Shown here piece after piece: positions 2,729 through 5,163 of a stretch of 64,000 nt of DNA (positions are counted from its first letter, which is position 1; each line of letters begins with the position of its first letter). The position numbers and the translations under genes are program-made. Source of the stretch: Armatimonadota bacterium. Its GTDB lineage: Bacteria; Armatimonadota; Fimbriimonadia; Fimbriimonadales; Fimbriimonadaceae. Location of the stretch: positions 1 to 64,000 of the forward strand of contig JAEURN010000008.1 in the NCBI GenBank assembly GCA_016789105.1, in the 5' to 3' direction. The notes beneath the pieces were generated by a model. The model saw nothing but the letters and a program-made list of their open reading frames with translations, searched no databases and had not been told where the DNA came from.

Positions 2729-3727
2729 ATGGCCGACTTCCTCTTCGAACCCGACACAAATCCCGAACTCATCCAGGCCAAAAAAGTAGCCGTCATCGGC
2801 TACGGGAGCCAGGGCCGTGCCCAAGCCCTCAACCTCCGCGAAAGCGGAGTACAAGTCACAATCGGCCTCTACCCCGGGTCAAAATCCCGCGCCCAAGCCG
2901 AAGCCGATGGCTTCCCCACCCAGGACACTTGCGAAGTGGTGCAGCGGGCTGACGTCGTGATGCTTTGCACCCCCGATGTGCCGATGGCGCAGATCTACCG
3001 CGAGGATGTGGCCCCGTTCCTCCGCTCCGGCATGACCCTGCTGTTTGCCCACGGCTTCAACATCGTCTATGGCACCATCGCCCCGCCACCGGGCATCGAT
3101 GTCGCCATGGTCAGCCCCAAAGGGCCGGGGCCGGGGCTGAGGGCCGAATTCATGGCTGGGAAGGGCCTGCCCGCGCTGGTCGCCGTCCACCAAGATGCCA
3201 CCGGCCAGGCCGAAGCCCTCGCCCTCAGCTACGCCTGGGGGATCGGCTCGGCGCGGGCGGGCATTTTGCGCACCACATTCCGCGAGGAAACCGAAACCGA
3301 TCTCTTTGGGGAACAGGCCGTCCTTTGCGGAGGGATCCCCGCCCTCATCGAAGCCGGAGTCCAAACGCTCATCGATGCCGGATACACCCCGGAAGTCGCC
3401 TATTTCGAATGCTTGCACGAAACCCGGCTCATCGTCGAACTGCTCTACCGGGGCGGGCTGACCCACATGAACAAGCGCATCAGCGACACCGCCGAATGGG
3501 GCGGATACCTGGCCGGAAAGCGGCTCGTCACCGATCAGACCAGGGCTGAAATGAAAGCAATCCTCGCCGAAATCCAATCGGGCCAGTTTGCCCACGGGTG
3601 GATCGCTGAAAACGAGGCCGGGCTCCCTCATATGCAGGCGTTCCGGCAGCAGACCCCCAACCTGCCGACCGAACAGGTGGGCCGCCGCGTCCGCCGAACC
3701 CTGCCCATCATCGAAGAAGAAGATTAG
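2729..3727 (+). CDS. ilvC: Ketol-acid reductoisomerase
   Basis: 332 residues, the usual length for class I enzymes. It catalyses isomerisation and NAD(P)H reduction of acetolactate or acetohydroxybutyrate in valine, leucine and isoleucine synthesis. The Rossmann motif GYGSQG lies at about 25-29, catalytic His in FAHGF at about 108, metal-binding acids in DLFGEQ and in FECLHE, and the substrate Ser in ISDTAEWG. Oddities: Arg30 replaces the common His of GSQGHA, and Tyr48 sits where many NADPH enzymes have Arg in the beta2-alphaB loop (GLYPGSKS). It stands alone without ilvB/N/D; the next gene starts 34 bp downstream. ATG at 2729 has no strong Shine-Dalgarno. Confidence 0.95.
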   Translation: MADFLFEPDTNPELIQAKKVAVIGYGSQGRAQALNLRESGVQVTIGLYPGSKSRAQAEADGFPTQDTCEVVQRADVVMLCTPDVPMAQIYREDVAPFLRSGMTLLFAHGFNIVYGTIAPPPGIDVAMVSPKGPGPGLRAEFMAGKGLPALVAVHQDATGQAEALALSYAWGIGSARAGILRTTFREETETDLFGEQAVLCGGIPALIEAGVQTLIDAGYTPEVAYFECLHETRLIVELLYRGGLTHMNKRISDTAEWGGYLAGKRLVTDQTRAEMKAILAEIQSGQFAHGWIAENEAGLPHMQAFRQQTPNLPTEQVGRRVRRTLPIIEEED

Positions 3728-3761: not shown

Positions 3762-4328
3762 ATGACACTTGCGGCCCTGGCCGGATTGATCGCCACCCAA
3801 AGGGCGCAGACCCCGCAAGTCGGCGAGTTTGCTCCCGGTTTCACGCTCAAACGGATGGGGAGCAAAGAAAACGTCAGCCTCGCCGATTTCAAAGGCAAAC
3901 GCCCGGTTGTGCTCATCTTCGGTTCTTATACGTGACCCCCGTTCCGGCAACATGCCGAGTATCTGAACCGGTGGTTCAGCGAAGAAAAATCCAAAGCCGA
4001 ATTCCTGATCGTCTACGTCCGCGAAGCCCATGCGACCGACGGCCAACAAGCCCAACAAAACATCCGCGACGGCGTTTTGGTCGCCAACCACAAAACCATT
4101 GAGGAACGGGAAGAAGCCGCCAAACATTGCGCCGCAGAACTCGGACTCAAAATCCCCATCCTCATGGACAGCATGGATGACAAAACCGAAAAAGCCTACC
4201 AAGGCTGGCCAGACCGGCTTTATGTGGTTGGCAAAGACGGCAAAATCGCCTACGCCGGGGAAAAGGGGCCCCGGGGATTCGACCCGCCCCAGGCAAGGGA
4301 GGCTCTCCACAACCTAGCCGGCAGATAA
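3762..4328 (+). CDS. Iodothyronine-deiodinase-like thioredoxin-fold protein, probable selenoprotein (in-frame TGA)
   Basis: Reading through one TGA (3933-3935, codon 58) gives a single 188-residue protein ending at TAA 4328. The TGA sits in FGSYT-(TGA)-PPFRQ, which matches the active-site motif of the deiodinase family (FGSxT-U/C-PPF), where the residue is selenocysteine or cysteine. The sequence after it keeps family-typical segments (VYVREAH.TDG, EEREEAAKHC, PILMDSMDD, YQGWPDRLYVV, DGKIAYAGEKGP.GF) with no further stops, so it does not look decayed. A hairpin starts about 6 nt after the TGA: GTTC 3941-3944 with GAAC 3965-3968, and CGGCA 3945-3949 with TGCCG 3953-3957. This could serve as a bacterial SECIS, though the ACA apical loop lacks the usual G. 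TGA serves as an ordinary stop elsewhere here. Alternative: a TGC/TGT-to-TGA nonsense mutation. The enzyme is probably a redox enzyme; substrate unknown. Confidence 0.75.
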
Positions 4329-4344: not shown

Positions 4345-5163
4345 ATGGTTGTCCTTATCTGCGTCGACGGAGCCCGGCCCGATGGCATCGCCCGCGCGGC
4401 CACGCCCAACCTCGACCGGATTGGCCATGAGGGGTCGGTCTGCTTCCATATGCAGCCTGTCCATCCCAATTTGCCGCTGGCCGGGCAACAATCGCTCTTC
4501 CGCAGCGTTCCACCGGATGTCCATGGGGCAACCGGAGCCGAACTCAACGGGTTCAAGCGGACAATCCCAAGCCTGATCGACACGCTGGCGGCCGCCGACC
4601 TCAAGGTGGGCATGTTCTATACCATCCCCAGCTTGCGGGAAGTCAGCCTCCCCGATTCGTCCTCCGTCAACTATTGCAATGCCCGGACCCACACCAGCGA
4701 TGGCGACAACCACATTGTCGAAATGGCCATCCGCACCGCCGCCATGGAAGACTTCGACTTCCTGTTCGTCAATTTGGGCCATGCAGGTTATGTGGGTGCT
4801 CACTACGGCTGGCATTCCGACGAATACATCCAGGCCATGACATTCACCGATGCCTGCATCGGCAAGTTCACCGATGCCATCATCGCCCTCCACCAGCCGG
4901 TCGACTTTATTGTGGCCAGCAACCACTCCGGTGGCGGTGAGGCCGACGAAGACCTTCCGCTCTACATGTGGGGTTACCGCATGGTTCAGGGGATCAAGGT
5001 CGAGCAGCCGGTTTCGCTGCTCGATATCGCCCCAACCATCGCGTACCTTTACAGCATCGACCCCCCACGCGAGTGGCAGGGCAAACTGATTGCCGAGGCC
5101 ATCAAAGACACGCCAGAATCGGAAGCCCGGAGCCAATCCACCGTCTTCGGCTTGGAAGACTGA
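4345..5163 (+). CDS. Alkaline-phosphatase-superfamily protein (NPP/phosphodiesterase-like), altered active site
   Basis: 272 residues, short for the family. The start VVLICVDGARPDG, then TPNLDRI, PPDVHG, a GH-containing loop near 143-160 and a SxHSGG loop near 192 follow the order of nucleotide pyrophosphatase/phosphodiesterase domains. Asp8 and His residues of the metal sites are kept. However, the second-site Asp appears as Asn in VNLGHAGY, the 'SDHG' Asp appears as Asn in ASNHSGG, and no Thr/Ser aligns with the nucleophile ahead of AGQQSLFRS. It may be inactive, or use a different chemistry. No signal peptide, so cytoplasmic. The gene begins 16 bp after the deiodinase-like gene and 10 bp before a membrane-protein gene. 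Confidence 0.7.
   Translation: MVVLICVDGARPDGIARAATPNLDRIGHEGSVCFHMQPVHPNLPLAGQQSLFRSVPPDVHGATGAELNGFKRTIPSLIDTLAAADLKVGMFYTIPSLREVSLPDSSSVNYCNARTHTSDGDNHIVEMAIRTAAMEDFDFLFVNLGHAGYVGAHYGWHSDEYIQAMTFTDACIGKFTDAIIALHQPVDFIVASNHSGGGEADEDLPLYMWGYRMVQGIKVEQPVSLLDIAPTIAYLYSIDPPREWQGKLIAEAIKDTPESEARSQSTVFGLED

Follow-up and report, generated by a model that had tools for sequence, protein, structure and literature searches.

A deiodinase-family gene with a conserved in-frame TGA, very probably encoding a bacterial selenoprotein, in a near-complete Armatimonadota genome

We found that the gene at positions 3762–4328 of the window (the whole stretch of 64,000 nucleotides that was analysed) very probably encodes a bacterial deiodinase-family selenoprotein, with selenocysteine (Sec) inserted at residue 58. 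This reading draws on the open frame, the Sec machinery of the genome and the conservation of both the TGA codon and the catalytic network, and a modelled fold points the same way.

An open reading frame with TGA at the catalytic position

3762..4328, plus strand: candidate Sec-containing deiodinase-like gene, 188 amino acids with Sec58, TAA stop at 4326–4328
3933..3935, plus strand: TGA predicted to be read as selenocysteine (residue 58); same column as Sec170 of Dio3, TGA in 30 relatives and Cys in 5

The frame contained a single in-frame TGA (codon 58), preceded by 57 codons and followed by 130. When the part downstream of the TGA was shuffled by mononucleotides, only 1.4% of trials were free of stops, and homology was detected on both sides of the TGA, over residues 18–183 for the Pfam family T4_deiodinase (PF00837) and residues 24–180 for the PDB entry of Dio3. 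The open frame is therefore not a chance occurrence, and the continuous, family-like frame with no other stop that the first-pass annotation had described was confirmed. Third-position GC was also alike upstream (0.68) and downstream (0.67) of the TGA. The match to PF00837 was strong (E 2e-33, 116 bits vs a cut-off of 27), and alignments to mouse Dio3 (4tr3, E 4e-20) and Dio2 (9h48, E 2e-17) placed the TGA in the column of the catalytic Sec, which bears out its earlier assignment to the Sec/Cys position of the family. Genome-wide recoding of TGA was ruled out; as had been claimed, this codon is an ordinary stop for neighbours, and the next gene (4345–5163) terminates with it. Judged by eye, that gene resembled alkaline-phosphatase-superfamily proteins, and the gene on the other side (2729–3727) was ketol-acid reductoisomerase-like. 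These flanking genes are 16–34 nt from the deiodinase-like gene and an operon is possible. No conserved gene neighbourhood was seen by eye.

Fold and catalytic residues

An AlphaFold model based on 22 family sequences had a mean pLDDT of 93, and its best PDB matches were Dio2 and Dio3, with ResA and peroxiredoxins next. Ser55, residue 58 (Cys or Sec), Pro60, Phe61, Tyr85, Glu88, His90, Arg116 and Arg152 were invariant across the family, and Thr57 was nearly so. Alignment of these invariant residues gave Ser167, Sec170, Tyr197, Glu200, His202, Arg225 and Arg260 as their Dio3 counterparts, which make up the catalytic network that has been described for deiodinases (PMC7506546, PMC11592359). Other positions differed: Trp207 of Dio3 was replaced by Gln95 in the window protein and Tyr257-Phe258 by Trp149-Pro150. 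His110 occupied the position of Dio3 His219 and was not conserved in the family. Besides, the protein matched positions 174–340 of the NF038285 (deiodinase_rel) profile with E 7e-54. This match covered only the C-terminal half of the profile, the N-terminal half having no counterpart in the window protein, and its 183.6 bits were below the curated cut-off of 250.

Relatives and distribution

A scan of the class identified 12 more gene copies across 10 other genomes, each with one TGA, and additional scans covered Planctomycetota, Hydrogenedentota, Verrucomicrobiota and other Armatimonadota. Counted as non-identical sequences, 30 relatives from Armatimonadota, Planctomycetota, Hydrogenedentota and Verrucomicrobiota had TGA at the identical codon, in the motif FGSxx*[PG]PF, and 5 had Cys (TGC/TGT); the comparison with relatives suggested in the first-pass annotation thus revealed both forms. 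In a tree of 34 rows the Cys forms clustered, although support was weak and a long-branch warning applied. Disabled copies were not seen among the relatives. Weak same-genus matches (L062, L070 and L071) were considered as such copies and rejected, being ordinary peroxiredoxins. All 11 gene-bearing genomes of the class contained selA, vs 60 of 113 overall (hypergeometric P 6e-4, with kinship ignored). Seven other genomes (species) of the same genus had selA and lacked the deiodinase-like gene, so the gene is dispensable and has been lost or transferred in the course of its history.

Two further arrangements were also observed. One locus (L107/L043, G059:C134:3046-4951) carried three divergent tandem deiodinase-like genes, all of which had TGA as the Sec codon. 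In other Armatimonadota, the Cys form of the domain (FGSISCPVF or FGSLSCPVF) occurred in larger proteins with an open frame of at least 500 amino acids (L135–L138).

Sec machinery of the genome

The source genome (2.75 Mb in 11 contigs, 99.96% complete) was searched family by family for Sec machinery beyond the window, a check proposed together with the original prediction. It encoded selA (E 1e-129), selB (E 2e-87, over the cut-off), selD (E 6e-105, with an in-frame TGA of its own) and tRNA-Sec with a UCA anticodon; since all four were found, the reading cannot be dismissed for want of Sec machinery. The selD gene (L010, G000:C8:168775-169692, minus strand) had its in-frame TGA in the motif SGUAGK and an 8-bp hairpin with the loop CCG, so that in this genome SelD itself is a predicted selenoprotein, and its SECIS loop is atypical. 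No in-frame stop was found in the formate dehydrogenase of the genome.

Hairpins downstream of the TGA

3945..3957, plus strand: SECIS candidate 1, 5-bp hairpin CGGCA-ACA-TGCCG, loop from 15 nt after the TGA, without G
3963..3979, plus strand: SECIS candidate 2, 7-bp hairpin CTGAACC-GGT-GGTTCAG, loop from 35 nt after the TGA, starting with GG

The two-part hairpin at 3941–3968 that had been proposed as the SECIS element was not the minimum-energy fold; RNAfold instead gave two separate hairpins at 3945–3957 and 3963–3979 (−14.9 kcal/mol, z about −1.7 vs shuffles). The accompanying remark that the usual loop G is lacking applied to the first of these (loop ACA) and not to the second (GGU). In a synonymous recoding test of the window gene, P was 0.16 for hairpin 1, 0.06 for hairpin 2 and 0.012 jointly, i.e., its hairpins exceeded synonymous recoding only weakly, and hairpin 1 by itself did not. 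Free energy alone discriminated poorly across the family (Stouffer z of −4.9 for the SECIS stretch and −3.8 for the upstream control), and we therefore used a positional test, in which perfect hairpins with stems of 5 bp or more were counted in 6-nt bins along 23 Sec genes. A hairpin centred +18 to +23 nt from the TGA was present in 18 of the 23, and nearly all other bins held 1–5. Hairpins just 3' of the TGA were strongly enriched across the family, as is the case for bacterial SECIS elements. Many of their loops were AGGU/AGGC or GGUC, the latter resembling the loop of E. coli fdhF. The window gene was at the edge of this pattern, with a SECIS weaker than most. The Rfam model SECIS_1 (RF00031) had no match in the genome, and control genomes likewise gave none, which makes this negative uninformative.

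The SelD genes of the class had a covarying stem (e.g., GCTGGG..CCCAGT and AATTGGG..CCCAATT) and a loop that often lacked G in its first two places, so an element without an early loop G could still function here. A natural control for this hairpin was provided by the same-genus genome G092, whose SelD (L088) used TGT (Cys) instead of TGA and had lost the SECIS stem. Within our explanation, the chance that the second hairpin (3963–3979) is the working SECIS and the first a vestige appears to fall a little short of even. The second has the stabler stem and the GG at the loop start, and it also occurred in two of the three tandem G059 copies with compensating changes (CTG/CAG vs CTC/GAG); yet its loop is 35 nt away from the UGA, whereas most family members have a hairpin centred at about +18 to +23, and hairpin 1 may suffice if the SelD elements of the clade, as it seems, do without the early G. 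We tentatively suggest, with more doubt than confidence, that SelB of this clade does not require the apical loop to open with G, or else that the window gene uses the displaced hairpin at +35. If so, some selenoproteins of these Armatimonadota would escape the usual SECIS-search rules.

The weak SECIS of the window copy and the patchy occurrence of the gene within the genus would also fit an inactive remnant, in which the TGA either terminates translation or is a misread TGC/TGT codon, and the sequence beyond it is decaying. We consider this very improbable: 30 relatives from four phyla share the TGA at this position, the catalytic residues 3' of it are intact, third-position GC is equal on either side of it, and the genome has full Sec machinery.

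Export and proposed function

3762..3818, plus strand: short hydrophobic N-terminus MTLAALAGLIATQRAQTPQ, which appears to correspond to the signal peptides found in relatives and is weak when taken alone; pLDDT 60–79

Many relatives had N-terminal signal peptides as judged by eye, that of the window protein being short, and the family is probably exported. In planctomycete and verrucomicrobial members (L026, L028, L030 and L033), DxDxDG repeats similar to the calcium-binding motifs of EF-hands were noticed by eye upstream of the deiodinase domain.

For the functional selenoprotein, we infer the following scheme. SelB with GTP and Sec-tRNA(Sec) would bind the stem-loop just 3' of the UGA, and the ribosome would place Sec where the first helix of a thioredoxin/peroxiredoxin-like fold begins. 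The selenolate of this Sec would be held by Ser55, Thr57, Tyr85, Glu88, His90 and Arg116, a network conserved from animal deiodinases; it would reduce the substrate and then be regenerated by thiols, perhaps via Cys123, which is present in most relatives. The most likely function appears to be that of a selenol oxidoreductase that is exported and regenerated by thiols, and the likeliest class of substrate a peroxide or an oxidised thiol.

Dehalogenation by the window protein is possible, although we regard as unlikely a true bacterial reductive dehalogenase or deiodinase that uses the animal mechanism on halogenated aromatics. It would agree with the fold, which is closest to Dio2/Dio3, and with the retention of the proton-relay Ser, Thr, Tyr, Glu and His plus His110 (for their roles, see PMC7506546 and PMC11592359). 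However, thyroid hormone is not expected in these bacteria, as has also been argued previously (PMC1088965), Trp207 of Dio3 is not retained, the counterpart of His219 varies within the family, and no halogen-metabolism genes were seen in the neighbourhood.

Relation to known proteins and significance

Bacterial deiodinase-like proteins, in Sec and Cys forms, have been known since a 2005 report on the Sargasso Sea (PMC1088965) and were described again from GOS in 2008 (PMC2398784), and such selenoproteins appear in current reviews (PMC9312934, PMC13188914). Thus, a bacterial Sec form is not unusual, contrary to the first-pass annotation, and the window gene is a solid further example of a group known from sequence since 2005. 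We did not find a paper in the open-access literature that ties bacterial deiodinase-like proteins to Armatimonadota. The window gene shares PF00837, the in-frame UGA, a bacterial SECIS-like hairpin and the existence of Sec and Cys forms with the Sargasso Sea and GOS proteins (PMC1088965, PMC2398784), but the Armatimonadota genome in which it is located is near-complete and has the whole set of Sec genes, its motif is UPPF rather than the UxxC given in reviews, and its first SECIS loop is G-less. With vertebrate Dio2/Dio3 it has in common an aligned core of ~157 residues, the Sec column and the motifs SxTU, EAHxxDG and HxxxxxR; in contrast, it lacks the long N-terminal transmembrane anchor and the Trp and Tyr-Phe positions noted above, and its SECIS is bacterial and within the reading frame. 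ResA and the peroxiredoxins (AhpC, Bcp and AhpE), the second-best structural group of the model, appear to share the thioredoxin fold, whereas the window protein has no CxxC and is far nearer to deiodinases in sequence.

The SECIS loops in this clade are unusual, a warning that SECIS-based searches may overlook genes. The present gene links a deiodinase-family selenoprotein, represented so far mostly by metagenome fragments, to near-complete genomes with all Sec genes. The catalytic network of animal deiodinases is near-invariant in bacteria that should encounter no thyroid hormone, and with such genomes at hand the original function of the family becomes testable.
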